NCBI RefSeq assembly: GCF_025490915.1
Contig: NZ_JANQBA010000007.1
Span: forward strand, 1-64,000
DNA: 64,000 nt
Direction: 5' to 3'
DNA from: Lacticaseibacillus parakribbianus
GTDB lineage: Bacteria > Bacillota > Bacilli > Lactobacillales > Lactobacillaceae
A program made the translations under genes and the position numbers. Each line of letters starts with the position of its first letter. The first letter of the stretch is position 1. Below are positions 28,346-64,000 of this stretch, piece by piece. The notes beneath the pieces are model-generated. The model did not search any database. It was not told the DNA's origin and worked only from the letters and a program-made list of their open reading frames with translations.

Positions 28346-29032
28346 TCAGATCAGGGCGTCAAGCGCCGCCGGCAGCTGGGCCAGCGCCGTGATGGTGGCG
28401 GTCGGTTGCTGCAGGTCGCCGCTTGGCGCGTGCGGGTACCGCGGCGACCAGTCGTACCAGACACTCAAGACGCCAAACGCGTTGGCGCCTTGGACGTCAC
28501 GGGCGAGGTTGTTACCTACCATGACGGTGCGGCGCAGGTCGCCGGCGGTCAGGTGCATCGCCGCCTGGGCCGCCGCAAACATCGCGGCGGCGGGTTTTTC
28601 CTGACCCACAGCCTCGGAAATCGTTCGCGTCTCAAACAGCGGGGCGAGCCCGGTGCTTGCGAGGATATTCTCGAACGACCGGACGCGGCCGTCCGCGACC
28701 AGCCCCAGGCGCCAGCCGGCCGCTTGAAGCGCCGTCAGCACCGCAAGCGCGTCGGGCAAAAGTGTCGCGGTCAGCACGTTGCCGGCGTCATCGAAGACCT
28801 GGCTATCTTCGTCGACTAGGGTGTCGCCGCAGTCCAGCCAGAGGATGCCGGGCCGAACCGCCGCGCCGTCGTCGCTCACGTCCGGTTGCGCCGCGGTATT
28901 CGGTTGCGCCGCGGAACGGCCGCTCACGCGCGTGGTCGCCGCGGTTCGGGCGGCACCAACCGGCTGGGTGGCCCCGGTCGTCGGGTCGGGCCGGGTGCTT
29001 GGCGCCGCGGCCCGTTCGCCTCCCGCTGCCAT
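28346..29032 (-). CDS. HAD-family phosphatase with low-complexity N-terminus
   Basis: The 228-residue product has a haloacid-dehalogenase core from about residue 60: ILWLDCGDTLV (nucleophile Asp68), VADGRV in the motif II position, EKPAAAMF with the motif III lysine, and MVGNNLARDVQGANAFG as motif IV. The first 60 residues are Ala/Thr/Pro/Arg-rich and unlike the family. The start is the ATG that overlaps the GH38 stop by one base (TGATG); no separate ribosome site is seen, so it is translated by coupling. It probably dephosphorylates a sugar phosphate or a related metabolite in mannoside catabolism. Confidence 0.8.
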   Translation of the reverse strand: MAAGGERAAAPSTRPDPTTGATQPVGAARTAATTRVSGRSAAQPNTAAQPDVSDDGAAVRPGILWLDCGDTLVDEDSQVFDDAGNVLTATLLPDALAVLTALQAAGWRLGLVADGRVRSFENILASTGLAPLFETRTISEAVGQEKPAAAMFAAAQAAMHLTAGDLRRTVMVGNNLARDVQGANAFGVLSVWYDWSPRYPHAPSGDLQQPTATITALAQLPAALDALI

Positions 29033-32000
29033 CAGCGCGTGAAGGCCAGGGTCACAACCTGGTACGGGGTGACCTTGATCGCCAGCTTGCCGTCGCTGGC
29101 CTCAAGCGGTTCCGGGTGGGTCTCATCCAGCCGCACCTTGGCGACGGACTGGTAGTCGAAGGTCGGGGTCACGTTGATCACCGTGTTTTCACCGGTGTAT
29201 TCGTGGAAGCGCAGGATCACCTGGTCGCCGTCTTCGCTGTGCTTGATGGCGTCGACTTCGACCGGCTGCGTGGCCGCGAAGGTGAACAGCGGCTTGGCGG
29301 CAGCCTTGGCCGCGCCGTCGACGACGGTCAGGCCGTGGTTGAGGGCCATGGCGATCGGCTCCACGTTGCCTTCGACGAAGTCACCGCGGTGGCCGAGCAG
29401 GCTGTACGTGAAGTCGTGAGCGCCTTGGTCGGCCTCTGGGTCGGGCTCAATCCCCGACTTCAGCAGGGACATGGACAGATGCGCGTCCTTGATGCTGTAG
29501 CCGTACTTGGAATCGTTGAGCAAGGCGATGCCGTAGTCGCGCTGCGACAGGTCGGCCCACTTGTGGGCGACCGTCTCGAACTTCGCGGTGTCCCACGAGG
29601 TATTGTTGCTGGTCGGGCGCGACACGTTGCCGTACTGCACGTCGAAGGTCGCGTGGTCGGCCAAAATGGTGGTGTCAAACGCGGTGCGAAGCAGGAATTG
29701 GTGCTCGTGCCAGTCGATGTGCGTCTTGAAGTCGATGCGGCGCGAGTGGCTGTACAAGATCACCGTTTGGGCAACCGTGGAGTCGCGGAAGGTGTAGTGG
29801 AACTCGATCTGCTGCGACAGCGGCCCGGCCTCATGCACGGTGATCGCGTCGGCGGCCAGGGTGATGGTCTTTTCCGGGTAGTCCTCATCGATGTTCCAGG
29901 CGTCGTACTGCAGCGGCCGGTCCTCGTAGACGGTCAGCACGTTGCCGAACTTGCCGGCGGCCAACAGCTCGCGGTCGTTGTCCTTGTCGTAGATCTCCGT
30001 CAGCTGACCGTTTTGGGCCCAAGTCAGGCGGTAGTGAGCGGATTCGACCGTGTTGCCGGTGATTTCAGCGGCCATCCGTACCGGCGTGGTCTGCGGCGTG
30101 AAGGTCAGGCTGCTTTCGCCGAACGCCGGCGCCGTTGCCGCCACCAGGTAGTGGTCGCCGTGCTTTTCGGCGGCCAGCACCTGGCCCCGCGCGTCCGTGA
30201 ACTGCCCGTCGCGGGTTTCCGGCACGGCCACCAGGTCCTGCAGGCTCCACGCGTTGAGGTTGCGAACGGTGTAGGCGTCGGCCTTTGGCGTCAGCGCCGC
30301 GTCATCCAAGGCGGCGTTGAGCTTGGCGATCCGCGCGAACAGCTGCTGGTACTCGACCTTATTGTCCTCGTAGACCTCGTGAATCGAGCTGCCAGGCAAA
30401 ATGTCGTGGAACTGGTTGGTCAACAGGTGTTCCCAGATGTCTTGAATCTCCGCCGCCGGGTAGGCCACGCCGTTTTCGACGCCGGCCTGGACGTACCGGG
30501 CCTCGAGGTCGCGCATCGCGAACTCGAGCTGGCGGTTTTGCTTCTTGACCCGGGCCTGGGAGGTGTAGGTACCGCGGTGGAACTCCAGGTACAGCTCGCC
30601 GTTCCACTCGGCGATCGGCTGATCGGAGTCGTCGATGGTCTCGTTGAGCTTTTCGAAGTAGTCGTCGACGCGGGTGTTTTCGATGGTCGGCAGGCCCGGC
30701 AGCTGGTTAATCATGTCGATGTTTTCGATCATCTCACGCTGCGGACCGCCGCCGCCGTCGCCGAACCCGTAGGCCAACAGCAGGTCGTTGTTCAGGGCCT
30801 TATCGGCGTAAACGTCGTAGGAGCCCAGCACCGTGTGCGGGGTGACCAGGCCGTTGTAGGTGTAGAAGTAGTAGCCATCCGCGGTCTTCTTGTAGTCGTA
30901 CTCCTGGCCGATGGTGGTGATGAAGTGCGTCAGGACCTCGGAGCCGTCGATGCCCTTCCACATGAACGTGTCATGCGGCATCCGGTTGGTTTCGTTCCAA
31001 GAAATCTTGGTGGTCATGAAGTTGTTGATGCCAAAGCCCTTCATGATCTGCGGCAAGGCCCAAGAGTAGCCGAAGACATCCGGCAGCCACAGCACGTTTT
31101 GCTTGGCGTCGAATTCCTTTTTGAAAAAGCGCGTCCCGTACAGGAACTGGCGAGTCAAAGACTCCCCGGACGGCAGGTTGGTGTCGGGTTCAAGCCAGGT
31201 CGCGCCTTCGGGTTCGAAGCGCCCTTCCTTGACGCGTTCCTTGATCTTGGCGTAAAGCTCCGGGTAGTCCTCCTTGACGAACTTCCAGACCTGCGGGGTC
31301 GAGTGCATGAACTTGTATTCCGGGTACTCGTCCATCAAAGACAGCACCGTGGAGAAGGTGCGAGCGGACTTTTCGCGCGTGTGACGCAGGCGCCACAGCC
31401 AGGCCACGTCGATGTGGGAGTGGCCGATGGCGGAAATCTTGAACTGCTTGTTTTGGCCCTTGTGAGCCGCGAGGAAGGCCTGAACGTCCTTGAGCCCAAG
31501 CGCCGCGGTGGCGGTGATGTCTTCAAGCGTCTGGTTGCCCCAGACGAAGCGGCGCAAGACGCGGTCCAGCAGCTTCTGGTACTCGTACAACAGCGGCTCG
31601 TCGCGGTCCAGCTCGCGGGTGGTCTGGTCGATCATGTCCAGCCACCGCGCCAGGTCGCGGATCGGCGCGATCAGCTTGCCGGCCTTGGCCTCCTGCAAAA
31701 TGTAGTGCTGGATGCGCTGCAACCCGCCGCCTTCGTGGCCGGTCCACATGCAAATGGCGACGGCGACCGTCGAATCAGAGAAGCGGTGGTCGAGCACCAC
31801 GTCCTTGTGGTTGCGGTCGACGGCCTGGCGTGGGTGGCCGTTCAGGTGAACCAGCCCCTCGAAGGCGCCGTTGTTGCCGTTGCGGTCCAAATCCAGGTGA
31901 GCGACGTACTTCTCACCGGCGGCAAGCGTCGGCACGGTCAGCGTGAAGCGCAGCCAGTAGTAGTCGTCGCGGCCGGACCAGGTGTCCCCGATCGCGATCG

Positions 32001-32148
32001 GCGCGAACTCGGCGTTGGTCGGCGGCAGCGGCTTGTGATCCTCGCGGTCGTCGTGCCAGATGCCCATGCCGGTGATCGGCTGGAAGTTGGCATAAATGTA
32101 GCTGTTCAGGGTGTGGAGCTGCTGCGTGACTTTTTCTTTTGAATACAT
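29032..32148 (-). CDS. GH38 alpha-mannosidase
   Basis: A 1038-residue cytoplasmic retaining alpha-mannosidase. Zinc-site and catalytic motifs are visible: GHSHIDVAWLW (His243, His245 and Asp247 region) and LWLPDVFGYS with nucleophile Asp357; the C-terminal half forms the GH38 beta domains (HRGTYTSQARVKKQNR, then DRPLQYDAWNIDEDYPEK). No signal peptide. I start at 32148 (GGGGA upstream); a longer start 18 bases earlier overlaps the ribosome site. It should remove alpha-mannose from imported oligosaccharides. It is the first gene of a two-gene operon with the HAD phosphatase. A paralogue with identical motif order lies at 44727-47858. Confidence 0.96.
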   Translation of the reverse strand: MYSKEKVTQQLHTLNSYIYANFQPITGMGIWHDDREDHKPLPPTNAEFAPIAIGDTWSGRDDYYWLRFTLTVPTLAAGEKYVAHLDLDRNGNNGAFEGLVHLNGHPRQAVDRNHKDVVLDHRFSDSTVAVAICMWTGHEGGGLQRIQHYILQEAKAGKLIAPIRDLARWLDMIDQTTRELDRDEPLLYEYQKLLDRVLRRFVWGNQTLEDITATAALGLKDVQAFLAAHKGQNKQFKISAIGHSHIDVAWLWRLRHTREKSARTFSTVLSLMDEYPEYKFMHSTPQVWKFVKEDYPELYAKIKERVKEGRFEPEGATWLEPDTNLPSGESLTRQFLYGTRFFKKEFDAKQNVLWLPDVFGYSWALPQIMKGFGINNFMTTKISWNETNRMPHDTFMWKGIDGSEVLTHFITTIGQEYDYKKTADGYYFYTYNGLVTPHTVLGSYDVYADKALNNDLLLAYGFGDGGGGPQREMIENIDMINQLPGLPTIENTRVDDYFEKLNETIDDSDQPIAEWNGELYLEFHRGTYTSQARVKKQNRQLEFAMRDLEARYVQAGVENGVAYPAAEIQDIWEHLLTNQFHDILPGSSIHEVYEDNKVEYQQLFARIAKLNAALDDAALTPKADAYTVRNLNAWSLQDLVAVPETRDGQFTDARGQVLAAEKHGDHYLVAATAPAFGESSLTFTPQTTPVRMAAEITGNTVESAHYRLTWAQNGQLTEIYDKDNDRELLAAGKFGNVLTVYEDRPLQYDAWNIDEDYPEKTITLAADAITVHEAGPLSQQIEFHYTFRDSTVAQTVILYSHSRRIDFKTHIDWHEHQFLLRTAFDTTILADHATFDVQYGNVSRPTSNNTSWDTAKFETVAHKWADLSQRDYGIALLNDSKYGYSIKDAHLSMSLLKSGIEPDPEADQGAHDFTYSLLGHRGDFVEGNVEPIAMALNHGLTVVDGAAKAAAKPLFTFAATQPVEVDAIKHSEDGDQVILRFHEYTGENTVINVTPTFDYQSVAKVRLDETHPEPLEASDGKLAIKVTPYQVVTLAFTR

Positions 32149-32288
32149 GTCTAGTCCCCTTCCCAAAGGTCCCGGGCATCAGCGGCCCGGTTAGTAAGAT
32201 TACCTGCTTATCATAACGCATTGGACCCCATTTGCGTGTCTCTGACGCGCAGTTTGCACCAAGAGCTGGAATAGGGGGATAAGCCAAC

Positions 32289-32416: not shown

Positions 32417-33433
32417 CTACTCCGTCAGCGTGACCCAGGCCCCGCTGCGGCTGCTTTGATAGATGCCGTTCAAAAGCGTCAGCGGCACCAGCGCATCCGC
32501 CCCGGCCAGGTAGCCGACCAGCGGATCGGCTTCTCCCGTGAGGCGATGCACGAACGCCGCGAACAGGCGCTGGTGGCCGTCGCCCCACGCGGCCTTTTGG
32601 TCCTTGGCCACCGCAATCGTTCGCGCCTCCTGAACCACGCCGTCCAGCCACAGCCCGGCGTTGGTCACCGTCAGCTCACCGCCGCTGCAGGCGAAGGTCA
32701 GCGTGGCCGGGTCGTCTCGGGCGTAATCGTTGGTGGCAAAAATCACCGCCGGCACCCCACCGGGCAACACGGCCGTGGCCATCGCGGCGTCTTCGACTTC
32801 TACCGCGCCGGCCAAAAGCGCGGTCATCACCTGGCCCCGCACCCGCCTGGGGTGGCCGCCCAGAAAGCACAGCGCGTCCAGCGTGTGAATCGCCTGGTTG
32901 ATCAGCACCCCGCCGCCTTCCGTCGCCCACTGCCCCTTCCAGGCCGCCGCCTGGTAGTAGGCCGCATCGCGGTGCCAAGTCAGCGTGGCCTTGATGCCGG
33001 TCACCTTACCCAGCCGGCCTGAAGCCAGCAAGCGCTTGGCCGCGACCAGCGATGGGGCGAAGCGATTTTGGAAAATCACCGCGTATTTCCCGGGAAATTT
33101 TGCCGCCACGGCCAGCACCGCGCGACCCTCCGCCGGCGTCATCGCCAGCGGTTTTTCGCACAGCACCGCCTTGCCGGCCTGAAGCGCCGCGATGCTCATC
33201 GTCGCGTGGAGGAAGTGCGGCGTCGCGATCGTGACCACATCCAGGTTGCTGGCCAAAAGCTCGTGGTAATCCGAGTAAAAGGCCACCGCCCCGGCCGCCT
33301 TGGCGAACGCCCGGCCCTTGACCACGTCGCAATCGCAACAGGCCGCAAGCGTCGCGTCTGGCAGTGCCGCAATCGCCGCGGCATGGGCGTGGGCGATCGC
33401 GCCGCAGCCGATAATCCCGAATCGTAGCATCAT
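32417..33433 (-). CDS. Gfo/Idh/MocA-family oxidoreductase (second of a pair)
   Basis: A 338-residue NAD(P)-dependent dehydrogenase: Rossmann motif FGIIGCGAIAHAHAAA at residues 4-19, LCEKPLAM (about 94-101) with the catalytic Lys, and EGGGVLINQAIHTLDALCFLGG with the conserved His/Asp region. It oxidises or reduces a sugar or sugar derivative. The start ATG overlaps the upstream stop (TGATG). It is the last gene of the GH31-SGNH-epimerase-Gfo/Idh-Gfo/Idh operon. It differs clearly from its neighbour, so the two probably carry out successive steps or an oxidation-reduction pair. Confidence 0.92.
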   Translation of the reverse strand: MMLRFGIIGCGAIAHAHAAAIAALPDATLAACCDCDVVKGRAFAKAAGAVAFYSDYHELLASNLDVVTIATPHFLHATMSIAALQAGKAVLCEKPLAMTPAEGRAVLAVAAKFPGKYAVIFQNRFAPSLVAAKRLLASGRLGKVTGIKATLTWHRDAAYYQAAAWKGQWATEGGGVLINQAIHTLDALCFLGGHPRRVRGQVMTALLAGAVEVEDAAMATAVLPGGVPAVIFATNDYARDDPATLTFACSGGELTVTNAGLWLDGVVQEARTIAVAKDQKAAWGDGHQRLFAAFVHRLTGEADPLVGYLAGADALVPLTLLNGIYQSSRSGAWVTLTE

Positions 33434-34593
33434 CAGTAGCTCCCTTCGGTGTCCAACACCCGTCCCGTCGTCCCCGGTCGGTAGCGCGACGTCTCCCGCC
33501 GCCGGTTCAACGCCTTCAAAAAGGCCGCCCCGTCGATCGGCAGCTCGACCCAGCGGTGCTCCCAAGACGACAGGTAAATCGCGTTGCTGATGGAAAGGCC
33601 CCGCAGCCCCTCCGCCGCCGGCGACATCAGCGGTACCCCCGTGAGAATGTGTGAAACAAAGTTCCTCACAATTTTCTGGTGGCCGGAGTCGCCGTCGAAC
33701 GCGACATCAACCGGCACCTCGCTGCAGTCCGGCTGACCGAAACCGCCTTGGAACGTGTGGTTGAAGTCGGCCTCGTCCTGCGCGTTGCGCCACAGCCGCA
33801 GCCGCTGGTCCTCAATCACCAACTTGCCCCGCGAGCCGACGATTTCGAACCGGTTGGTGCCGGGCGTCTCCGTCGTGGTGGTGACGAACACCCCGGTCGC
33901 GCCGTTCTCGTACTCGACGTAGGCCGTCGCCTCGGTTTCGACCTCGACGTCGCGCCGCTTGCCGTTGTACGTGAAACCCATCACGCGGCTGGGCATCCCG
34001 CAGATCCACTGCCACAGATCCAGCTGGTGCGGGTCCTGATTCAACAGCACCCCGCCGCCCTCACCGGCCCAGGTCGCTCGCCAGCCGCCCGAGTTGTAAT
34101 AGCTCTGCGACCGGTACCAGTCGGTGATGATCCAATTGGTGCGACGCAGCTCGCCCAACGTGCCGTTTTGCACCAGCTCCCGCGCCTTTTGGTAAGCCGG
34201 GTTCATCCGCTGGTTGTACATCAAGGCGTAGGTCAAATCCGGGTGCCGCGCCGCCACGGCCAGCGCGTCTTCCACCGCCTGGGTGTAGACACCGGCCGGC
34301 TTCTCCGACAGCACGTGCTTCCCCGCCGCCAACGCCTGGGCCGCGATGAGCGGGTGAAAATAATGCGGTGTGGCGATAATCACCGCGTCGATGGCCGGAT
34401 CGGCGAGCAACGCCCCTGCGGTCGGGTAGCAGGTCAGCTCGCCGAACCGCGCGGTCGCCGCGGCCAGCCGCGCCGGGTCGATGTCGGCAATCGCCGAAAG
34501 CTCGGCGTGAGGAATCTCGCCGGCGGTCAGGTAGCTGGCGTGAAGGGTGCCGATGTTGCCGACGCCGATGATGCCAATGTGAAGGGTTGTCAT
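33433..34593 (-). CDS. Gfo/Idh/MocA-family oxidoreductase (first of a pair)
   Basis: A 386-residue dehydrogenase: GIIGVGNIGTLHASY at residues 6-20, VLSEKPAGVYT around 90-100 with the catalytic Lys, and EGGGVLLNQDPHQLDLWQWICGMP with the conserved His/Asp region. Substrate unknown; family members act on inositols, glucose derivatives and N-acetyl sugars. GAGGT precedes ATG; the ATG overlaps the stop of the isomerase/epimerase gene by one base (TAATG), so translation is coupled. With the isomerase/epimerase-like protein it resembles inositol- or keto-sugar-type catabolic modules. Confidence 0.92.
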   Translation of the reverse strand: MTTLHIGIIGVGNIGTLHASYLTAGEIPHAELSAIADIDPARLAAATARFGELTCYPTAGALLADPAIDAVIIATPHYFHPLIAAQALAAGKHVLSEKPAGVYTQAVEDALAVAARHPDLTYALMYNQRMNPAYQKARELVQNGTLGELRRTNWIITDWYRSQSYYNSGGWRATWAGEGGGVLLNQDPHQLDLWQWICGMPSRVMGFTYNGKRRDVEVETEATAYVEYENGATGVFVTTTTETPGTNRFEIVGSRGKLVIEDQRLRLWRNAQDEADFNHTFQGGFGQPDCSEVPVDVAFDGDSGHQKIVRNFVSHILTGVPLMSPAAEGLRGLSISNAIYLSSWEHRWVELPIDGAAFLKALNRRRETSRYRPGTTGRVLDTEGSY

Positions 34594-35627
34594 TAATCCC
34601 ACCTCTGATCAAGTTTGCACAACAGGTCGCGCAGCGCGGCCGCCGCAATGTTGAACAACACCTCGCCGTCGCCGCGGCGCGTGGCCCCCGATGCGCGAGG
34701 CGAACTGGCGCCAACTGTGCCCACCCCGGTCGCCGCGCCAGCCGGCCGCGAGGGTCGTTCCTGGGTCCCGGCCGCTCGTGCCGGGGCCGCCGCTTCCGTG
34801 TTGGCGACCGGCGCCGCACCCACCGCGGCCAGACCGGTCGGCGCCGGGTGACGCACCGTGCTTCGCGCCTCCAGCTCCCGGAAGCCGGGGAAAACGCTCA
34901 GGTGCGGTTCGATGCTCAAAAATCCCGCGTAACCGCGCTTTTGCAGCGCCGCCAGCACCGCGGCCACGTGGCCATCGCCCTGCCCCGCCGGCGTCACCGC
35001 GCCGCTTGCGGTCAAGGCGTCCTTGATGTGGACATAGGCGATGTGCGGCGCCAGTAGCTCGAAGGCCTCCGGGTAGACACTTGCGCCGCACTGCACGAAG
35101 TTGGCCGGATCAAAGGCCAGGCGCAGCTGCGGATTCGCCAACGTTGTCACAAGGTCCAGGCAGCGCTCCGGCGAGTCGCCGTAGATACCCTTCTCGTTTT
35201 CGTGCAGCAGCGTCACCTCGGGGTAGGCCTTGGCCACCTCAAGCATCGCCCGCATCCGCTGCAGCACCTGCGGCCGGTAGTCCTCAGCCGCCCCCGCCGG
35301 CACGTAAAAGCTGAAGCAGCGCAGGTACGGTGCCTTGAAAATGCGGGCCAGCGTCAGCGTGTGGTCGAGCTTGGCCAGGTGCGGCGCAAAAGAATCGGTG
35401 ATGCCGATTTTGCCGATCGGCGAGCCGATGCTGGACACGCCGATGCCGGCCGCCGCCAGCTGCCGCGCGTAATCCGCGGCCTGAGCCAGCGTGAAATCGC
35501 TCACAGATTGGCCCCCGATGCCCCGCAGCTCCATGTGATGAATGTTATTTGCCTGCAGCACCCGAATCTGGGTCGCCAGGTCCGGGCTGATCTCATCCGC
35601 AAAGGCGGACAGCGTCATCGTCGTCAT
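34593..35627 (-). CDS. Sugar phosphate isomerase/epimerase-like TIM-barrel protein with C-terminal insertion
   Basis: A 344-residue member of the xylose-isomerase-like/AP-endonuclease-2 TIM-barrel family. Core motifs are LSAFADEISPDLATQIRVL at the start, HNIHHMELRG-like strand 2, LLHENEKGIYGD with a metal-ligand Glu (about residue 150), LAFDPANFVQCG, and YVHIKDAL. After FLSIEPHL (about residue 251) a stretch of about 60 residues rich in Ala/Pro/Gly/Thr/Arg splits the last helix (residual LFNIAAAALRDLLCKL) from the barrel. It overlaps the SGNH stop by 4 bases (ATGA) and precedes two Gfo/Idh genes, so it probably isomerises a sugar or keto-inositol intermediate. Confidence 0.85.
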   Translation of the reverse strand: MTTMTLSAFADEISPDLATQIRVLQANNIHHMELRGIGGQSVSDFTLAQAADYARQLAAAGIGVSSIGSPIGKIGITDSFAPHLAKLDHTLTLARIFKAPYLRCFSFYVPAGAAEDYRPQVLQRMRAMLEVAKAYPEVTLLHENEKGIYGDSPERCLDLVTTLANPQLRLAFDPANFVQCGASVYPEAFELLAPHIAYVHIKDALTASGAVTPAGQGDGHVAAVLAALQKRGYAGFLSIEPHLSVFPGFRELEARSTVRHPAPTGLAAVGAAPVANTEAAAPARAAGTQERPSRPAGAATGVGTVGASSPRASGATRRGDGEVLFNIAAAALRDLLCKLDQRWD

Positions 35628-36454
35628 TTTCCCCCTCCGATCAAGGCGAGCAGCGCCTGCTCGAACCGCGGCAGCCACAGCTTTCGGTAGCCCAGCCGCG
35701 TCGGGTGGGCATCGTCGGCCATCGCCGCCGGCAACGCCTTGGTCGCGTCGTGCAGCGCCGCATCGCCGTACAGGTCGAGAATCGCGAAGTGCCACTTCGC
35801 CTGCAGCTCGCGCAGCCGCGCCACCAGCGCCGCGTAATCGCGATCGGCCGGCTCGCGCAGGCAGGTGTAGACCAGCACCGGGCAGCCCCACCGCGCCGCC
35901 ACCGTGGCCAAAATGTGTTCGATGGCCCCGGTGGTGGTGTCAACAGCAAAACCACCGGCCGCAGTCGGTTCGGTTGCCGAAGCCGCCGCGGTCGGTAATG
36001 TCGCCCGATCCGGCGAATCGGCGACCGCGGCCCCGGTCGGCACGGCTGCAGGTGGCACGGCTGGCCCGACGGCGAATGCGGTCCCAGCTGGCCCGGCCCC
36101 GGTCGGCGGCGTCATCACGCCCAGCGCCTTGCCCTGGCGGCTGTCGTTAGTGGAAAGCTGCAGGACAAAGGCGTCAAGCGCCGGCGCCGCCGCAAAATCG
36201 CTCGCCAGCCGCGAGACGTAGGTGTCGGCCGCCGTGCCGGCCAGCGTGGTGCCGCTGATCGCCGACTCAATCGGCACCACGCCGTCTTTGGCCGCCAGGA
36301 ACTGCACGAACGACTCACCGAGAGACGCCGCCCCAACGGTGATCGAGGAGCCCAGAAACCCGATGGTGGTGCCGCGAAGCGGTGAGGCCGGGTCAGGTGG
36401 CAAAGTGGCCGCCGCGTACTGCGGGGCGTTGCCGGAAAGGCTGTCAGTTGTCAT
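35624..36454 (-). CDS. SGNH/GDSL hydrolase with mid-protein low-complexity insertion
   Basis: A 276-residue cytoplasmic SGNH esterase. Blocks are visible as GFLGSSITVGA (catalytic Ser around residue 38), the block II Gly in AISGTTLAG, LQLSTNDSRQG (block III Asn), and DDAHPTRLGYRKL (block V Asp/His). Between blocks III and V, residues about 113-175 are Ala/Thr/Pro/Gly-rich and extra to the family. GGAGG lies before ATG; the stop of the GH31 gene is one base upstream. It probably removes acyl groups from sugars released by the neighbouring glycosidases. Confidence 0.87.
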   Translation of the reverse strand: MTTDSLSGNAPQYAAATLPPDPASPLRGTTIGFLGSSITVGAASLGESFVQFLAAKDGVVPIESAISGTTLAGTAADTYVSRLASDFAAAPALDAFVLQLSTNDSRQGKALGVMTPPTGAGPAGTAFAVGPAVPPAAVPTGAAVADSPDRATLPTAAASATEPTAAGGFAVDTTTGAIEHILATVAARWGCPVLVYTCLREPADRDYAALVARLRELQAKWHFAILDLYGDAALHDATKALPAAMADDAHPTRLGYRKLWLPRFEQALLALIGGGK

Positions 36455-36455
36455 G

Positions 36456-38738: not shown

Positions 38739-38885
38739 TGTGACCTCCAAAAAACATCATTACACTCAAAAGCATTCAAAATGTTGGGTACACCTTTTAA
38801 GTGCTTTGCGTGATAAACTAGCTAAGACAGCTTAAATCTGTATAAACATATTGAATAATCCCAGTCACCTCGAAAGGACAACGCG
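38739..38885. promoter_or_regulatory. Divergent promoter region of GH31 operon and regulator
   Basis: 147 AT-richer bases. Visible elements are the palindrome CATT-CAA-AATG (about 38773-38783), the repeated half-words AGCTAAGACAGCTTA, and ATATTGAATAAT, similar to ATATTGATTAT in the control region of the paralogous regulator (about 53205). These are candidate operators. No consensus -35/-10 pair stands out. Confidence 0.4.
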
Positions 38886-47858: not shown

Positions 47859-47913
47859 GTCCTGCACCTTCTCTTCCATCTTGCAATGCATCCCGCGGCC
47901 AAGCCGCGCATAC

Positions 47914-47951
47914 AAAAGGGGTGTGCCGCAACGCCCGTTACGGCACACCCC
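47914..47951 (-). terminator. Terminator between GH76 pair and second GH38
   Basis: Perfect 11-base-pair stem GGGGTGTGCCG / CGGCACACCCC with a 12-base loop and TTTTG tail on the minus strand. A second short hairpin CCGG...CCGG precedes it. It divides the long minus-strand gene run. Confidence 0.85.
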
Positions 47952-52258: not shown

Positions 52259-52268
52259 CACGCGCCCC

Positions 52269-54545: not shown

Positions 54546-54560
54546 CTAAGGAGAACTGAA

Positions 54561-55295: not shown

Positions 55296-56774
55296 CTACT
55301 TCACCTTAACCCGCACCACCACGGGCAGCCCATCCGTTGTCCAAGTTGCGGCGACGTGCAGCCCCGCCGCGTCGCGGTGCCACTTGGTTTCACCGGCGGC
55401 GCCGAGCACGTCGACCGCGGCGATGCCGCCGTGGAAGTCCACGCCGTCGTAGTTGTGGTCGTGGGGGCTTCGTAGTGATGTGATGCACATCTCATGCCCC
55501 GGCGTCGGGTTCAGCGCGATGGCGTAGAGGTTGCCGTCATTAACCGTGAAGCGGAAGTCCTGGTCGGTGTAGGCGATTGCCTTGCTGTCGGCGAAGCTGC
55601 CGCCGACCGCCGCGGTCGGGCCTTCCGCCGGCTTGCGCCACGGGCGGGAGCCGTAGATGGCCTCGCCGTTGACCGCAAGCCAGGCGCCGACGGTCAAGAG
55701 CAGCGACTTTTCCTCCGGGGCGATGGTGCCGTCGGCGTGGGGGCCGACGTTCAGCAGCAAGTTACCGTTCTTGCTGACGACATCGACTAGGTTGCAGAGA
55801 ACCTCCGGCGCCTTTTTGTAATCGTTGCCCGGGGTCCAGGACCACGAATTACGCGCGATGGCGGTGTCGGTCTGCCAGGCGTAGGGCTGGACATCCGCGA
55901 ACTGGCCGCGCTCGACGTCGGGCAACGCGGTGCCGAAGGCGAAGGCGTCGAACTTGTAGGCAATCACCGGCACGATGCCCCACTGCGCCGCGCGGTTGTA
56001 ATAATAGGCGGCAAAACGCTGCAGGTAAGGCTTCATCGCCAGCTGCTCGATCCACCAGTCGAAGTACATTTCGCGCGGCTGGTAGCGGTCCACGATTTCA
56101 CAAGACCGCACCAGCCAGTCCTGCATGTATTCCGTATCCGGCTGTGGCGTGGTGATGTCCAGCGCATCCGCCGGCTCCTTTTGCGCCGGCCAGTACAGGT
56201 CGCCGCGGTGCAGCGGGTCGTGGATGTCGCTCGGGAATTCACGACCATGGCCGAGGAAGTGCCAGTGTTCGATGCGGTGCGAGGAGGCGCCGTAGACCAG
56301 GCCGCGCTGGTTCAAGGCCAGCTTGAGCTCACCGGCGACGTCGCGGTGCGGCCCCATTTCGTAGGCATTGTAGTGCGAAATTTCACTGCGGTACATCTGA
56401 AACCCGTCGTGGTGCTCGGCCACCGGCACCACGAACTTGGCCCCGGCCGCCGCAAACAGGTCGGCCCAGGCCTGCGGATCCCACTTGGCGGCGGTGAACT
56501 TGGGAATCAGGTCCTTGTAGCCGACCTCGCGCTGGTCGCCGTAAGTCGCGCGGTGGTGAGCAAACTCTGGCGCGTCCTGCATGTACATGTTGCGCGGGTA
56601 CCACTCGCTGCCGAACTCCGGCACCGAGAAGACGCCCCAGTGAATGAAGATGCCGAACTTCGCGTCGCGGTACCACGAAGGCACCGAATATTGCGCCAGC
56701 GACTGCCAGGTCGCCTGGTACGGACCCTGGGCGATCACCGCGTCGATGCGAGCCAAGTCTTGTTGTAAGGTCAT
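55296..56774 (-). CDS. GH29 alpha-L-fucosidase
   Basis: A 492-residue retaining alpha-L-fucosidase: WYRDAKFGIFIHWGVFSVPEFGSEWYPRNMY (residues 34-64) and AEHHDGF (119-125) are diagnostic, nucleophile Asp239 lies in REMYFDWWIEQ, and the C-terminal beta-sandwich follows from about 370. No signal peptide. AAAAGGAG lies before ATG, and a cre-like site just upstream suggests catabolite control. It releases alpha-fucose; it is convergent with the SGNH gene and divergent from the GH36/27-type gene. Confidence 0.95.
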   Translation of the reverse strand: MTLQQDLARIDAVIAQGPYQATWQSLAQYSVPSWYRDAKFGIFIHWGVFSVPEFGSEWYPRNMYMQDAPEFAHHRATYGDQREVGYKDLIPKFTAAKWDPQAWADLFAAAGAKFVVPVAEHHDGFQMYRSEISHYNAYEMGPHRDVAGELKLALNQRGLVYGASSHRIEHWHFLGHGREFPSDIHDPLHRGDLYWPAQKEPADALDITTPQPDTEYMQDWLVRSCEIVDRYQPREMYFDWWIEQLAMKPYLQRFAAYYYNRAAQWGIVPVIAYKFDAFAFGTALPDVERGQFADVQPYAWQTDTAIARNSWSWTPGNDYKKAPEVLCNLVDVVSKNGNLLLNVGPHADGTIAPEEKSLLLTVGAWLAVNGEAIYGSRPWRKPAEGPTAAVGGSFADSKAIAYTDQDFRFTVNDGNLYAIALNPTPGHEMCITSLRSPHDHNYDGVDFHGGIAAVDVLGAAGETKWHRDAAGLHVAATWTTDGLPVVVRVKVK

Positions 56775-57036: not shown

Positions 57037-58638
57037 ATGACTTTTGATCCCAACCAAATGACCGTGCAACGCGCCGATGGTGCCTGGCAGGAGCTGTCCC
57101 GCCAGGGCGATACCTGGGCGGCCGCCGGCATCCGCGTCACCACCAAGGCAACCACCAGCGACGCGGCCGCAACGGTCACGGGCGTTTTCGCCAGCCTGGC
57201 GGTCGCCATTACCGCCAGCGACCAACCGCTGCAGCGGCTGCGGCTGACCTGGCCGCGCGAGTCGCAGCCCGGCGCCTTGTTCATGGGCGACGCCTTCGAA
57301 CGGGCCTACGGTGAGCTGCGCTTCACCCCGCTCGACGAGGCCGCGGTGTATCCCTGGTACTTCGTCGAACACGGCCCGGCAGGCAACCACTGCCTGGGGG
57401 TGGCCACGCAGCCCAACACGTTGTGCAGCTGGACCGTGACGAATACGTCCACGATGCTGTGGCTGGATCTGCGCAGCGGCACGCGCCCGCTTCTGCTGGG
57501 CGACCGCCAGCTGCCGTGCTGTGAGGTGGTGAGCTTCACGAGTCCCGCCGCCGACCCCTTGCTGGCCCTCACGGCATTTTGCGCCCGGCTGAATCAGGCG
57601 CATCAACCGCGGCCACTGCCGCAGGTGATCGGCACCAACGACTGGTACTACGCATACGGGGACAACAACCGCGAAGACGTCGTCCACAACGCCGCGGCCG
57701 TAGCGGCGCTGTGTCAAGGCTTGCCGGTTCGGCCGTGGTGCGTGGTTGACGACGGCTGGCAGTGCGACCACAGTTCCGCCTACAACGGCGGCCCCTGGAC
57801 CGGTGGTAACGCCAAGTTCGGCGACATGGCCGCCGTCGCCGCGGCCATCAAGGCGGCCGGGGCCCGGCCCGGCCTGTGGTTTCGGCCGCTTTTGACCACG
57901 ACAGCGGCGCTTCGGCCCCACGCGCTGCGCCAAGACGGCGACGCCTTCACGCTGGACATCAGCGACCCGGCCGTGCTGGCCGCGGTGCAAGCCGACGTGC
58001 GACGCTTCGGCGACTGGGGGTTTGAGCTGATCAAGTTCGATTTTTCCACCGTCGATGTGTTCGCCCAGTGGGGGCCGACCATGGGGCTCGACTACGCACA
58101 AGGACCGCTGGCATTCCAGGATCAGACCCACACCACAGCCGAGATTGTGAAGAACTTCTACCGGGCGATTCGGGAGGCCGCGGGACCGGTTTTGCTCAAC
58201 GGCTGCAACGTGGTCGGCCACCTCGCCGCCGGCTTCATCGACCTGATGCGCATTGGCGACGACACCAGCGGCCGCAGCTTCCGCCGCACCGTCGCGATGG
58301 GCGTCAATTCGCTGGCCATGCGCCTGCCGCAGCACCGGACGTTTTACCTCGCCGACGCGGATTGCGTGGGCCTCACCCCGGACATTGACTGGGCCCAAAA
58401 TCGCCAGTGGCTGAACCTGCTGGCCCAAAGCGGCACCCCGCTGCTGGTTTCTTGCGACTTCAGCAAGCTCCCCGCCGAGCAAGCAGCGGCGGTTGCTCAG
58501 GCCTTCGCGCAAAACGTGGCGCAAACCGCCCGTTACGCACCGGTATCGGTGCTTGACGGCCGCTACCCACAGGTCTGGACCGATGGCAGCCGGCGCGATG
58601 TCTACGACTGGGAGACATCGCCGCTGGCGCCGATGTGA
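57037..58638 (+). CDS. Alpha-galactosidase-like clan GH-D enzyme (GH36/GH27 type)
   Basis: A 533-residue melibiase-superfamily enzyme. The N-terminal beta domain (1-190) is followed by a TIM barrel: WYYAYGDNNREDVV (203-216), WCVVDDGWQ (234-242), nucleophile Asp335 in LIKFDFSTVDV, CNVVGHLAAGFIDLMRIGDDTSG with the acid/base Asp408 or Asp409. It is shorter than classical GH36 tetrameric enzymes (about 730 residues), nearer to the short GH36/GH27 relatives. No signal peptide. GGAGGTG lies before ATG; followed after 72 bases by the GH172 gene. Alpha-galactose or a related sugar is the expected target. Confidence 0.87.
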   Translation: MTFDPNQMTVQRADGAWQELSRQGDTWAAAGIRVTTKATTSDAAATVTGVFASLAVAITASDQPLQRLRLTWPRESQPGALFMGDAFERAYGELRFTPLDEAAVYPWYFVEHGPAGNHCLGVATQPNTLCSWTVTNTSTMLWLDLRSGTRPLLLGDRQLPCCEVVSFTSPAADPLLALTAFCARLNQAHQPRPLPQVIGTNDWYYAYGDNNREDVVHNAAAVAALCQGLPVRPWCVVDDGWQCDHSSAYNGGPWTGGNAKFGDMAAVAAAIKAAGARPGLWFRPLLTTTAALRPHALRQDGDAFTLDISDPAVLAAVQADVRRFGDWGFELIKFDFSTVDVFAQWGPTMGLDYAQGPLAFQDQTHTTAEIVKNFYRAIREAAGPVLLNGCNVVGHLAAGFIDLMRIGDDTSGRSFRRTVAMGVNSLAMRLPQHRTFYLADADCVGLTPDIDWAQNRQWLNLLAQSGTPLLVSCDFSKLPAEQAAAVAQAFAQNVAQTARYAPVSVLDGRYPQVWTDGSRRDVYDWETSPLAPM

Positions 58639-58710
58639 CGCTTGCCGCTTGCCGCCGGTTGGTCCACGCCGAACAAAGTCGCTTTTCTCCAAACCCAAGG
58701 AGGTTTCCCC

Positions 58711-59775
58711 ATGTCCCTGCTATCCGAATTAACCCACGCCAAGGCGTCCCTGAGCCGCTCGATTTCTGCCGAAAACCCGACCGGTGAACCTAGCGGCGGG
58801 GGTCGCGCCACCACCGGCACCGGCGCCGCCGCAGCCCGGGAGCTCGGCGTCGGCTGGAAGGTCTCCCCTTCCGTCGAACTTGCGCCGCACAGCACCACCA
58901 CCCTGGCCGACATCACCGGTCAAGGCGCGATTAAGCACATCTGGATGACCTGCTTTCCCGCCCACTGGCGCAGCCTGGTGCTCGAGTTCACCTGGGACGA
59001 CGCCGCCCTGCCCGGGGTGCGGGTCCCGTACGGTGATTTTTTCTGCAACGGGTGGAACACGCGCTGCAACATTAACTCGCTGCCGGTGGCGGTCAACCCG
59101 GCCGGCGGCATGAACTGCTACTGGGAGATGCCGTTTCTGAGCCACGCAACGATCAAAATCGTCAACCTGGGCGATGAAGCACTGCCGCTGTACTACCAGA
59201 TCGACTACGCGCTGGAGGCAATCGCTTCGCCTTGCCTGTATTTTCAGGCCTACTGGCACCGCAGCCACCCGCTGGCGGCCAAGGCGGTTCACCCCGTCCT
59301 GCCGCAGATTGAGGGCACCGGGCATTTTGTCGGCACGTACCTCGCCTACCAAAGCAACAGCGCCGGTTGGTGGGGCGAGGGCGAGATGAAGTTTTACCTC
59401 GACGCCGACCGCGAGTTTCCGACCATCTGCGGCACCGGCACCGAGGACTACTTCGGCGGCGCGTGGAACTTTGAGCAACCGCAGGGCCAATACGGCCGCT
59501 ACTCGACCGCCTTTCTCGGGCTGCCGCAGGTGATTCAACCGGATGGTCTGTACCAAAGCCAGCAGCGCTTCGGCCTGTACCGCTGGCACGTGCTGGATCC
59601 GATTCGCTTCACCACCGGGCTGCGCGTCACGCTGCAGTCGCTGGGCTGGCGCAGCGGCGGCCGCTACCTCCCCCAGCAAGACGACATCGCCTCCACCGCG
59701 TTCTTTTACCTGGACCGGCCGGACTGCGCGTCCCTTGAACCGCGGCTTGACGCCGACTGGCTGGAGGTCAACTGA
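58711..59775 (+). CDS. GH172-family protein (DUF2961)
   Basis: A 354-residue DUF2961/GH172 protein: GAIKHIWMTCFPAHWRSLVLEFTWDD (72-97), VPYGDFFCNGW, YWEMPF, and the conserved catalytic-region motif GTEDYFGGAWNF (243-254). GH172 members act on alpha-fructofuranosides and alpha-D-arabinofuranosides. A short Gly/Ala/Thr run (residues 29-42) interrupts the N-terminal segment. I start at ATG 58711 because AAGGAGG lies upstream; the longer frame reads through non-family sequence. Co-transcribed with the GH36/27-type gene and closed by a terminator. Which furanoside it cleaves cannot be told. Confidence 0.9.
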   Translation: MSLLSELTHAKASLSRSISAENPTGEPSGGGRATTGTGAAAARELGVGWKVSPSVELAPHSTTTLADITGQGAIKHIWMTCFPAHWRSLVLEFTWDDAALPGVRVPYGDFFCNGWNTRCNINSLPVAVNPAGGMNCYWEMPFLSHATIKIVNLGDEALPLYYQIDYALEAIASPCLYFQAYWHRSHPLAAKAVHPVLPQIEGTGHFVGTYLAYQSNSAGWWGEGEMKFYLDADREFPTICGTGTEDYFGGAWNFEQPQGQYGRYSTAFLGLPQVIQPDGLYQSQQRFGLYRWHVLDPIRFTTGLRVTLQSLGWRSGGRYLPQQDDIASTAFFYLDRPDCASLEPRLDADWLEVN

Positions 59776-60888: not shown

Positions 60889-63063
60889 TCACAGCTCACC
60901 CTGCAGCACGGTCGGGCGGCCGTCGCGCAGAAACACCGGCAGCGTCTCGAGCGGCGCTTGGGCGGTGATGGTCTGACCGCCTGCATACTGCTGGCCGTCT
61001 CGCGCATCCGTCCAGCTCGCGCCGGCCGGCAGGTAAACCGCGCGGCTCGTTGCGCCCGGCGTGGTCACCGAGGCGACCAGGATGTCCGGGCCGTACAGGT
61101 ACTCATCGGCGACGGTCCAGGTCGCCACGTCGGCCGGAAACGCTAGGAACAACGGCCGGATGACCGGCAGTCCCTGCGTATGTGCCGCATGCATGACCTG
61201 GCGCGAGTACGGCCGCAGCTTCTCGCGGATCAGGATGAATTTTTTCATAATTGCGTAATTGGCCTCGCCGAAGCTCCAGATTTCGTTGGCGGCACCTTCG
61301 CCCTCGGTTTCCTCGCCGCTGACCTTGTAGACCTTGGTGAACGGCTGCCGGGCCCCGTGAATGCGCATGACAGGGCAAAAGGCGCCGTACTGGAACCAGC
61401 GAATCAGAAGCTCCTGGAACGCCGGCGACGCGGCCTGGCCGCCGTGGAACCCGCCGATGTCCGTCGTCCACCAAGGAATGCCGGCGATGCCCATCTGAAG
61501 CCCCGCCACCATCTGATTGCGCAGATCCTGCCAGGTGGAATGAACGTCACCGGACCAGACCAACGCCCCGTAGCGCTGGCTACCGGCCCAGGCGCAGCGA
61601 ACCAGGTTGACGGCCGGGGTCAGCGTGTCGATTGCGGTCGCCGGGGTCGCAACAGCCGGGGCTGAGGTCGCCTGAGTTGCGGCACCCGGTGTTGCGGTCG
61701 CCTGGGGTGCGGCCGGTTGGGTCGAGACCGGTTGGGTTTCAGCCGCCGCAGCGCTTGCGGCCGCCGGTGCGGCCGCCACCCGCTCCGCCGCCGCACCGCC
61801 TTGACTCGCCAGCGCGGTTTGGCCCTCCGCGAAGCCCCGTACGTACTCGCGCGGGTAGAGGTTGCCGACCTGCAGCACGGCGCCTTCGTGGTAGCGGTAC
61901 AGCGCCGCGTCGTAGGTGCCGAACTCGGGCTCCGCCTCGTCCAGCCAGAACAAGTCGACGCCTTGGTCCAGGTAATTGTGCTTCACCTTGTCCCAGACGT
62001 AGCGGCGAGCCCGGGGGTTGGTCGGGTCATAGAACACGTTGTTGCCGTGGAAAATCATCTGAACATCCAGGCCACGGGTGGTCTGAACCAGCAGGCCGTT
62101 TTGGCGCATCTCCGCGTAATTTTCACTTCGCACGTCAATCTGCGGCCACACCGACACCATCAGCTTGATGCCGTATTCGTGCAGCTCGGCCGCCATCGCC
62201 GCGGGGTCCGGGAACGCGTCCGGATCGAAGCGATAGTCACCGCAGCGCGGCCAGTGGTAGTAATCGATCACCAACACGTCGATGGGGATCTGGCGCCGGT
62301 GGTACTCACGCGCCACGGCCAGGACCTCCGCCTGCGTCGCGTAGCGCAGCTTGCACTGCCAAAAGCCCAGCCCGTACTCGGGCATCTCCGGGGCCCGGCC
62401 GACCACGGCGGTGAACTGAGTCACAATCTGCGCCGGCGTGGCGCCGGCCGTCACCCAGTAGTCCAGCTGGGCGGTGCTGTCGGCTCGCCACTCGGTGGTG
62501 TTGCGCCCGAAGGAGACGGAGCCGACCGCCGGATTGTCCCAAAAGAAGCCGTAGCCTTGATCCGACAGGTAAAACGGAATCGTCACCTGCGAGTTGCGCT
62601 GCGCCAGCTCCAGGTTGCAGCCCTTGAGGTCAAAGAAGTCCTGCTGGTACTGCCCCATGCCGTACAGCCGCTCGTTTCGCGCCGACTGGAAGGTCGCCTT
62701 CAGCCGCCAGTCGCCGCCGCCCAGTGGCTGAAAGTCCCGGGCCCGGTGCATCAGGGCCCCGCCGTCGTCGGCCTCCTTGAGCAACAGCTGGCCTTGGTCA
62801 TCGTAAAAGGCCAGCTGACCGCCACCGTTGTGCGTCAGGTCGACCACGGCGGTCAGCGACCCGTTTTGAATGCTGGCCCGGGTCGCCTCAATGGTCACGG
62901 TTGCGGCCCGGGTCGGCCCAAGCAACGCCGGGCTGGTCAGGTCCAGCTCGCCATTGGGTCGGCTCACCACCCGCAGGCTGTTGGCCCCCCAGGCGGTGAG
63001 GCGAACGGTTTCGGTCTGCACCCGCCACTCGAGAAAATCCGTCCCTGCTGCGAAAACTGTCAT
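60889..63063 (-). CDS. GH31 alpha-glycosidase (alpha-xylosidase-like) with mid-barrel insertion
   Basis: A 724-residue GH31 enzyme of the alpha-xylosidase-like subgroup: LYGMGQYQQDFFDLKG (133-148), VLVIDYYHWPRCGDYRFDPDAFPDP (263-287), nucleophile Asp375 in LFWLDEAEPEFG, and GIPWWTTDIGGFHGG in the acid/base region. Between REYVRGFAEGQ (about 415) and NLVRCAWAGSQRYG (486-499) lies an insertion of about 70 residues of Ala/Pro/Thr/Gln, inside the catalytic barrel. The start at 63063 has GGAGGGG upstream; the longer frame would read through the ribosome site. No signal peptide. It follows the GH30 gene by 50 bases. Confidence 0.92.
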   Translation of the reverse strand: MTVFAAGTDFLEWRVQTETVRLTAWGANSLRVVSRPNGELDLTSPALLGPTRAATVTIEATRASIQNGSLTAVVDLTHNGGGQLAFYDDQGQLLLKEADDGGALMHRARDFQPLGGGDWRLKATFQSARNERLYGMGQYQQDFFDLKGCNLELAQRNSQVTIPFYLSDQGYGFFWDNPAVGSVSFGRNTTEWRADSTAQLDYWVTAGATPAQIVTQFTAVVGRAPEMPEYGLGFWQCKLRYATQAEVLAVAREYHRRQIPIDVLVIDYYHWPRCGDYRFDPDAFPDPAAMAAELHEYGIKLMVSVWPQIDVRSENYAEMRQNGLLVQTTRGLDVQMIFHGNNVFYDPTNPRARRYVWDKVKHNYLDQGVDLFWLDEAEPEFGTYDAALYRYHEGAVLQVGNLYPREYVRGFAEGQTALASQGGAAAERVAAAPAAASAAAAETQPVSTQPAAPQATATPGAATQATSAPAVATPATAIDTLTPAVNLVRCAWAGSQRYGALVWSGDVHSTWQDLRNQMVAGLQMGIAGIPWWTTDIGGFHGGQAASPAFQELLIRWFQYGAFCPVMRIHGARQPFTKVYKVSGEETEGEGAANEIWSFGEANYAIMKKFILIREKLRPYSRQVMHAAHTQGLPVIRPLFLAFPADVATWTVADEYLYGPDILVASVTTPGATSRAVYLPAGASWTDARDGQQYAGGQTITAQAPLETLPVFLRDGRPTVLQGEL

Positions 63064-63113
63064 AGTCCCCTCCATCATCTCTGGCCGCGCGTTCGGCACG
63101 GTCGATCGCGTTT

Positions 63114-64000
63114 TCAGCCTGCGCTGACCACCGTTGTGAAGCTGTGCGGCGCCAAGGTCACCGCCACCGCCGCACCGGTCTGGATCACACGCTGGGCCTG
63201 GACGGCGGCCGCGGCGGTCCTGTTTCCGGTGCCGGTCGCGGTCTCAGCCGCGGTGCCGGTCCCGCTTCCGACCGCACCGCCCAGGCTCACCGTCACCCGC
63301 CGCTCAACTTCAAGCGGATTACTGATCACCACCACCCGGCTGCCATCCGGGTTTTCAAAGCCCAGGGCGTTGCCGGCCAGCGGTCCGGTCAGCGACAGCG
63401 CATGGGCCCCGGCCTGCACCGCATGGGCGACGTGCTTCATGACGTAGAACTCGGGGTTGTAAGAGACGGTGCCGGTGGTCGGATCCACCGAGATCATCGC
63501 ATTTTGCCGCCAGCCCCAGGTGCTTTCGCCGCCGATTTCAAGCACCGCGTTCCAGTAGGTGTAGCCGGCCACCCCGTTGGTGATGTAGTGGCGCATCAGA
63601 TCGAACACATACTCGGCGTAGGCCCAGGTGTTTTGGCCGTCGCCGCACTCGTTTTCCGTCTGCAGGTAATCGAGTTCGGGGTAGGCCGCCACCGTCTGCT
63701 GCAGCGCCGCCTTACCGGCCCATTGGTAGCCGACGCCGCGGATGTAGCCTCGGGCCTGAGAATCGGCCAGCACCGCGCCGGCAAAAGCGGCGTAATCCGC
63801 CGAGTTGATCGTGCCCAGCCACAGCTGCGTGTCCAACCCCGCCGCGGTCATCGCGGGGCCGAGGTAGTCGCCGATGAAAGTGGCGAGTTGTGGTCCGGAC
63901 CAGACGCAGGACGGGAATTTCTGATCCGCCACCACCTCGTTTTGCACGTGCAGCTGGGCGATCGGGGCCCCGGCTTGCGCGTAGGCCTGCAGGAAGCGAA
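63114..64000 (-). CDS. GH30-family glycosidase, N-terminus beyond window
   Basis: The frame is open to the window edge; the visible C-terminal 295 residues include FLQAYAQAGAPIAQLHVQNEVVADQKFPSCVWSG, where the NE pair holds the acid/base Glu, and YLQTENECGDGQNTW with the nucleophile Glu, as in GH30 beta-glucosylceramidase/beta-glucosidase-type enzymes; YWNAVLEIGGESTWGWRQN then leads into the C-terminal beta domain (GNALGFENPDGSRVVVISNPLEVERRVTV). That domain carries a short Gly/Ala/Thr run (63200-63290). The GTG at 63947 is an internal Val codon, not the start. It is the upstream partner of the GH31 gene. Confidence 0.92.
   Translation of the reverse strand, partial: RFLQAYAQAGAPIAQLHVQNEVVADQKFPSCVWSGPQLATFIGDYLGPAMTAAGLDTQLWLGTINSADYAAFAGAVLADSQARGYIRGVGYQWAGKAALQQTVAAYPELDYLQTENECGDGQNTWAYAEYVFDLMRHYITNGVAGYTYWNAVLEIGGESTWGWRQNAMISVDPTTGTVSYNPEFYVMKHVAHAVQAGAHALSLTGPLAGNALGFENPDGSRVVVISNPLEVERRVTVSLGGAVGSGTGTAAETATGTGNRTAAAAVQAQRVIQTGAAVAVTLAPHSFTTVVSAG

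Follow-up and report, generated by a model that had tools for sequence, protein, structure and literature searches.

Systems close to the locus analysed here have been described in three bacterial groups. The yeast-mannan pathway of Bacteroides thetaiotaomicron, in the part of the source consulted, includes phosphatases and enzymes of glycoside hydrolase (GH) families GH92, GH38 and GH76 (PMC10154615); the same part presents GH125 as a family of exo-alpha-1,6-mannosidases that act on alpha-1,6-linked mannose only. The accessible part of PMC5215778 sets out a pneumococcal N-glycan locus comprising GH20C, ROK, GH38, GH125, GH92 and GH29 genes and the NgtS ATP-binding cassette (ABC) importer, and proposes ABC import followed by intracellular alpha-mannosidases. 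In Listeria, record NZ_LR134399 shows, as annotated, the order GH125, permease, permease, solute-binding protein (SBP), GH76 and regulator. Here we describe a glycan-degradation island of Lacticaseibacillus parakribbianus, located from position 28346 onwards in a 64,000-nucleotide stretch (the window; positions 1-64000 of the 149,467-base contig NZ_JANQBA010000007.1, hereafter C30) of a 2.82 Mb genome in 32 contigs. Phosphoketolase, WxL-interacting and Rgg proteins indicate the Lactobacillales, as do the nearest phosphoketolases in a plasmid collection (Latilactobacillus curvatus 69%, Enterococcus raffinosus 67% and Lacticaseibacillus paracasei 64%); Lactobacillaceae is the probable family, in line with the initial annotation.

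Sequence comparison indicates that the island is probably a mosaic of co-located cytoplasmic modules for alpha-mannose-containing glycans, which would be fed by the import of short alpha-1,6-manno-oligosaccharides and would serve scavenging. The best-supported part of this proposal is that short alpha-1,6-mannosides would be imported and hydrolysed in the cytoplasm. Gene classes were assigned with Pfam profiles on 23 island genes, with NCBIfam used for some, and the inventory of the initial annotation was borne out: two GH38, two GH76 and two GH31 enzymes, GH78, GH29, GH172, GH30 and a GtaA-type protein, together with two SGNH hydrolases, two Gfo/Idh oxidoreductases, an isomerase-like protein, one ABC system and two AraR-like regulators. 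Its GH36/27-type call finds a matching Melibiase profile, at a score under the cut-off, and stands as a weak assignment; relatives of this protein adjoin GH76/GH78 in two other genomes of the genus (G156 and G011; 50-51% identity).

The proposed import centres on a contiguous cassette of regulator, two permeases, SBP and GH76 (49066-54545). GH76 (b), used as the query against named genomes, returned 17 loci, 10 outside the Bacteroidota and seven within. Relatives of the two permeases, the binding protein and the AraR-like regulator adjoin GH76 in 10 of the 17 (six Enterococcus, one Vagococcus and three actinomycetes), and none of the four matched at the seven Bacteroidota loci. Identity to the six Enterococcus loci is 66-70% for the lipoprotein, 77-80% for permease B, 73-75% for permease A and 51-55% between regulator 2 and the regulator in the same position. 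A GH125 gene, confirmed by Pfam in one case, lies near in 8/10 cassette loci, E. durans and E. villorum being the exceptions, and in 3/7 Bacteroidota loci. Since relatives of the importer stand beside GH76 and usually GH125, the imported ligand is likely to be an alpha-1,6-manno-oligosaccharide. The nearby GH125 to be expected of a Listeria/Enterococcus-type cassette is missing from the island, and the GH125 of this genome is found on contig C32. No ATPase gene adjoins the island importer genes; the single OB_MalK-type ATPase gene of the genome, on contig C28, is likely to be shared with them.

The G+C content is 51-54% over 49066-55226 and 63-66% in the flanking enzyme blocks, and the importer genes were likely acquired by transfer. 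Recent transfer of the cassette from a sampled Enterococcus was considered and rejected: the low G+C content fits, but in a tree of 19 GH76 sequences GH76 (b) clusters with its three relatives from the genus (94/99), next to the group of Enterococcus (95/98) and not within it, and the tree of the SBP has weak resolution. GH76 (a) forms a long, divergent branch. The same difference in G+C content would suit a genomic hot spot of unrelated sugar operons, in which only the 49-54 kb cassette would act on alpha-mannan; the contig carries at least three regulators and two ABC systems, and the isomerase-like/Gfo triad described below occurs alone with ABC genes and a GH2 gene in three other genomes. 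However, GtaA, GH38, GH76 and GH78 stand together in all four clusters of the genus, two of them at about 56% G+C, and we regard such a hot spot as unlikely.

Both GH76 copies, which are 55% identical, contain YYDDMLWN with its adjacent catalytic aspartates. The aspartate pair of GH76 (a) aligns with that of 6shd and with the NN and AA of two Salegentibacter mutant chains; in the part of PMC9213526 consulted, the Salegentibacter pair is D136/D137, and the alanine double mutant was inactive on Man7. The closest solved chain to GH76 (b) is 3k7x (Lin0763; E 1.5e-112), followed by the alpha-1,6-mannanase 6shd (E 4.6e-54), and GH38 (b) is closest to chains of fission-yeast Ams1 (7vqo and 6lz1; E 3.8e-126 and 1.5e-124). 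Three GH38 motifs, taken here in the roles that we presume for them, are retained in all seven GH38 proteins examined, two from the window and five relatives.

The initial annotation saw no signal peptide on the island hydrolases, and we likewise found nothing signal-like with a crude measure of N-terminal hydrophobicity, which is not a signal-peptide predictor: values were at most 1.70 in the 17 window-complete enzymes and 0.65 in the complete GH30, as against 2.33 in the lipoprotein. The genome contains two GH76 genes, both in the island; a GH99 search of the genome returned 0 matches but is uninformative, since the control genomes were silent as well, and none of the 23 scanned island genes matched SusC/SusD. 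Selfish uptake of polymer, as envisaged earlier, was not upheld, the only two GH76 proteins being devoid of a hydrophobic N-terminus and no surface enzyme having been identified. Because these two are the genome's only GH76 genes, oligosaccharide scavenging fits better than selfish polymer uptake.

In such a scavenging pathway, the importer (lipoprotein and two permeases) would take up short alpha-1,6 manno-oligosaccharides, bare or branched, the two GH76 enzymes would cut the alpha-1,6 run and the two Ams1-like GH38 enzymes would remove mannose, while GH78, GH29, GH31, the GH36-like protein, GH172 and the two SGNH hydrolases would strip branch sugars and acyl groups. For the first GH31 enzyme, NCBIfam gave MalA (479.9) and alpha-xylosidase (313.8), both below cut-off. 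The mannose would be phosphorylated and isomerised by the products of a ROK gene and a phosphomannose isomerase (PMI)-like gene, located 13-16 kb beyond the window end, and would then enter the phosphoketolase route; the PMI-like protein scores 33.4 bits, below the cut-off of 116.2. The two regulators, 44% identical, each join a GntR head to a LacI-type (periplasmic-binding) sensor domain; regulator 2 probably governs the permease operon by sensing the oligosaccharide taken up, and regulator 1 probably controls the GH31/SGNH/isomerase/Gfo operon. The ligand would most likely come from debris of fungal (yeast) mannan or mannoprotein, once other organisms have opened it. If this is correct, some lactic acid bacteria can live on the mannan debris of neighbouring yeasts in foods and guts, with importers and cytoplasmic enzymes standing in for the outer-membrane machinery of the Bacteroidetes. 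Testable functions would also follow for a binding-protein family common to Enterococcus, Listeria and actinomycetes (alpha-1,6-manno-oligosaccharides), for the mis-named GtaA 'glutaminase' family and for the Gfo/isomerase triad.

GH76 was found in 4 of the 30 genus genomes searched and, at the level of the family, in 9/397 genomes, where four matches are weak and partial (G133, G264, G316 and G161) and the one in G358 is split over two frames. Because GH76 occurs in only 4/30 genus genomes and its neighbourhoods are conserved, the observation goes beyond chance; in this group it is rare for GH76 and GH38 to be joined in an intracellular set for alpha-mannosides. Among the literature matches listed, no title or abstract opening mentioned a GH76 or alpha-mannan locus from the Lactobacillaceae. 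The other three GH76-bearing genus genomes (G277, G156 and G011) combine GH76 with GH92, GH38, GtaA, GH78 and a different ABC system. The G277 cluster runs from an ABC system (of another type) through DUF624, an unknown gene, GH92, GtaA, a gene of the endonuclease/exonuclease/phosphatase family, GH38, an unscanned gene that is phosphoesterase-like by eye, GH76, GH38, GH78, SGNH, isomerase, GfoB, GfoA, GH32 and GH38 to HAD. The second half of this series corresponds, gene for gene in large part, to 28-49 kb of the window, identity being 84% for GH38 (a), 89% for GfoB and 76% for the HAD protein; in place of the first half, the window has an Enterococcus-like importer, and its GtaA lies downstream. 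G156 and G011 share the order ABC, DUF624, unknown gene, GH92, GtaA, GH38, GH76, GH78, GH36-like and GH38, their GH92 being 77% identical to that of G277.

A protein of 722-729 residues adjoins GH92 in these clusters (L032:8152-10320 in G277, L035:8942-11131 and L036:9384-11573). The 722-residue protein of G277, which is conserved in G156 and G011 (65-66%) and in G052 (60%), gave no Pfam or NCBIfam match and is possibly a new hydrolase.

The branch enzymes common to these clusters raise the alternative of a branched heteroglycan with mannose in its backbone or side chain, to which the branch enzymes and the 3-keto triad would be as essential as the mannosidases; fungal rhamno- and galactomannan, glucuronoxylomannan and actinobacterial lipoarabinomannan are candidate polymers. 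GH78 lies beside GH76/GH38 in 4/4 genus clusters and the GH36-like gene in 3/4, GH172 is present in the window with GH43 and GH127 downstream, and GfoB is near a glucuronide-3-dehydrogenase. Yet co-location by itself does not prove one pathway. Some of the branch enzymes belong to other regulators and adjoin another ABC system, located past 64 kb, and GH172, GH43 and GH127 were not seen by name in the partly scanned regions of G156 and G011. We view such a heteroglycan pathway as unlikely, to about the same degree as the hot spot of unrelated operons.

A second mannose locus is found on C32, where a GH38 gene is grouped with the only GH92 and the only GH125 of the genome (97-104 kb); with GH20C-type genes they make up a pneumococcal-type set at 95-104 kb. 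The enzymes of this locus could share a cytoplasmic pool of substrate with those of the island, if the GH92 and GH125 are cytoplasmic. The set bears on whether the island itself could serve host or plant N-glycans, with GH38, GH29 and sugar kinases dismantling imported high-mannose or fucosylated N-glycans. Such a role would agree with the presence of GH38 and GH29 in the pneumococcal N-glycan locus (PMC5215778, in the part consulted) and with the clustering of GH20C-type, GH38, GH125 and GH92 genes in the same genome. However, because C32 already carries a complete N-glycan-type set, the case for the island as an N-glycan locus is weakened; moreover, the N-glycan model has no role for GH76 or GH78, and the island yielded no GH125, GH92 or GH20, making this the least probable of the explanations considered. 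Beside the C32 locus (108527-114860; L041), two Pfam sulfatases and a third protein similar in its first residues adjoin a radical-SAM/SPASM protein that resembles a sulfatase-maturing enzyme.

The GtaA family occurs in 7/397 genomes of the family, and a GH38 or GH92 relative is present in all seven of the surroundings fetched. Outside the family, the annotations of Hymenobacter tibetensis and Bacteroides finegoldii place a GtaA-type protein next to GH76 and GH92, and a GH38 lies near GtaA in Subdoligranulum. NCBIfam has no name for the GtaA or the GH36-like protein. A glutaminase role for GtaA was rejected, a relative being a weak beta-galactosidase without detected glutaminase activity in the part of PMC9668830 consulted.

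The reading frames of SGNH hydrolase 1, the isomerase-like protein, GfoB and GfoA touch or overlap. GfoB is closest among solved chains to the glucuronide-3-dehydrogenase 8tdi (E 7.2e-97 over residues 7-372) and GfoA to 3q2k (E 4.2e-37; 8tdi, E 2.6e-27); among solved chains the isomerase-like protein is related, distantly, to 3tva alone (E 1.1e-6). This protein of the island occurs in 9/397 family genomes (E <= 1e-40), including six of the seven GtaA carriers (hypergeometric 1.1e-10, a value that ignores kinship). Both Gfo genes lie beside it in seven of the nine; for G156 and G011 the one Gfo gene seen was a relative of GfoB. In 3-keto-glycoside pathways, oxidation by a Gfo/Idh protein is followed by elimination, and the isomerase-like protein is a candidate for the lyase, a role played by DgpC-like proteins. 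The triad probably constitutes an independent 3-keto-glycoside module that the island has recruited. On a more far-reaching and doubtful interpretation of these sequences, the island would be a Gram-positive, entirely cytoplasmic counterpart of an alpha-mannan polysaccharide utilisation locus (PUL) for a branched fungal heteromannan, in which hydrolysis of the alpha-1,6-mannan core by GH76 and GH38 would be combined, within a single cell compartment, with redox cleavage of branches by the triad and with an undescribed branch glycosidase of the GtaA family; the triad would then target an acidic or otherwise hydrolase-resistant branch.

Several observations weigh against the alpha-mannoside mosaic proposed above. 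GH92 and GH125, which would be expected for a yeast-mannan pathway, are on C32 and not in the island, and GH78, GH29, GH31, GH172 and GH30 are superfluous for plain yeast mannan. A common operator for the two regulators was sought by comparing palindromes by eye and rejected, none being recognised as shared. GtaA is found in none of eight non-Bacteroidota genomes that bear the GH76 cassette, and the three genomes in which the triad has its own ABC genes and a GH2 gene (G110, G158 and G181) suggest that it is possibly unrelated to mannan. In four Spirosomataceae genomes, GH76, GH92, GH38 and GH125 are present in 0/8 GtaA regions, a set that omits a ninth, partial GtaA match of 52 positions; a GH127-type neighbour occurs in 4/8 of these regions (L078, L079, L083 and L084) and in 0/8 shifted controls, which matched nothing. 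GtaA as a mannan-specific enzyme was rejected, as these regions have no alpha-mannosidase family near it.

The extent of the island differs from that first described, a single unit of about 36 kb. Past 64,000 follow the rest of GH30, a ROK gene, Gfo/Idh, DUF624, the second ABC system, GH43 and a third GntR-type regulator, and further downstream, to about 88 kb, GH3, a second ROK gene, the PMI-like protein, two more GH38N proteins and GH127; a HAD hydrolase lies at the 5' side. The 36-kb figure is a product of the window edge, not biology, and in place of one unit the genes form a mosaic, in which the window covers at least two regulators and another follows past its end. The features are listed in Table 1.

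Table 1. Features of the island within the window, with strand and basis of assignment
Feature	Position	Strand	Basis or remark
HAD-type hydrolase/phosphatase	28346..29032	-	PF00702; long low-complexity N-terminus
GH38 alpha-mannosidase (a)	29032..32166	-	Pfam GH38N/mid/C/C2
Gfo/Idh oxidoreductase A (GfoA)	32417..33433	-	PF01408; start set at internal Met
Gfo/Idh oxidoreductase B (GfoB), probable glycoside-3-dehydrogenase	33433..34602	-	closest solved chain 8tdi
Xylose-isomerase-like TIM barrel, candidate partner of Gfo pair	34593..35627	-	PF01261
SGNH hydrolase 1	35624..36490	-	PF13472; low-complexity insert
GH31 (a)	36456..38750	-	PF01055, 396.7 bits
GntR/LacI-type (AraR architecture) regulator 1	38886..39989	+	PF00392 + PF13377
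GtaA-type probable glycoside hydrolase	40085..42067	-	PF16335 + DUF5127 + DUF4964
GH78 alpha-L-rhamnosidase	42098..44716	-	four Pfam domains; 3w5m, E 2.9e-129
GH38 alpha-mannosidase (b), Ams1-like	44727..47948	-	Pfam; 7vqo/6lz1
GH76 (a), divergent paralogue	48004..49041	-	127.3 bits, cut-off 25.9
GH76 (b)	49066..50097	-	144.5 bits, cut-off 25.9
Lipoprotein solute-binding protein	50117..51364	-	SBP_bac_8
ABC permease B	51383..52261	-	PF00528
ABC permease A	52269..53165	-	PF00528
GntR/LacI-type regulator 2	53433..54545	+	Pfam; divergent from permeases
SGNH hydrolase 2	54561..55226	+	PF13472; partial 64% relative in G277
GH29 alpha-L-fucosidase	55296..56774	-	PF01120; 89% to G277
Clan GH-D-like (GH36/27-like) enzyme, weakly assigned	57037..58638	+	Melibiase 19.2 bits, cut-off 27
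GH172 (DUF2961)	58642..59775	+	PF11175, 283.7 bits
GH31 (b)	60889..63099	-	Pfam; low-complexity insert in barrel
GH30, runs past window to contig 64538	63114..64000	-	full frame L021:114-1538; PF02055, 141.3 bits

In-frame inserts rich in Ala, Thr, Pro and Gly were observed in cytosolic enzymes of this high-GC genome, some of them within catalytic domains. They occur in the HAD hydrolase, the isomerase-like protein, SGNH hydrolase 1 and GH31 (b), and also at L022:92-2692 and L021:14909-16750; the GH31 (b) insert is a 30-bp tandem repeat (61632-61713). Three inserts are absent or shorter in G277, in which that of SGNH hydrolase 1 is shorter and the N-terminal insert of the HAD protein is absent. 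Upstream of the island, genes for a phosphotransferase system (PTS) EIIC, a sulfatase, a GntR-UTRA regulator, GH13, a YdjC-like protein and an esterase stand in a row (20467-27746), possibly a sulfated-sugar PTS cluster, and intergenic tandem repeats of 122 and 125 bp lie at 7055-7446 and 11721-12001.

Compared with known systems, the island shares GH76 and GH38 with the alpha-mannan PULs of the Bacteroidetes (B. thetaiotaomicron; Salegentibacter Hel_I_6), to which the GH92 and phosphatase-family gene of G277 and the placing of a GtaA-type gene beside GH76/GH92 in H. tibetensis and B. finegoldii add further likeness. In contrast to these PULs, it has an ABC importer, no SusC/SusD among the scanned genes and no surface GH76/GH99 seen, and all its scanned hydrolases look cytoplasmic. 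With the pneumococcal N-glycan locus it has ABC import and intracellular alpha-mannosidases in common, the GH20C-type, GH38, GH125 and GH92 genes being held by C32; the island differs in possessing GH76, GH78 and GtaA and in lacking GH125, GH92 and GH20. The triad, a Gfo/Idh pair with a xylose-isomerase-like protein in one coupled operon and with GfoB near 8tdi, resembles a 3-keto-glycoside pathway. The idea of a new Gram-positive strategy, put forward in the initial annotation, thus stands in part: the set with GH76, GH38 and an ABC system is rare, but its principle was already known, as the pneumococcal model of ABC import and alpha-mannosidases (PMC5215778, in the part consulted) and the Listeria GH125-ABC-GH76 locus precede it. 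The Listeria locus has the same permease-permease-SBP-GH76 order and a regulator, with a GH76 that is 53% identical, and the best solved relative, Lin0763 (3k7x), is from L. innocua; it differs in having GH125 and, in the stretch shown, no branch enzymes, whereas the island carries GH38, GH78, GtaA and further enzymes but lacks GH125. The island is of a known kind in new company, a Listeria/Enterococcus-type GH76-ABC cassette within a cluster of branch enzymes that is rare in the family.

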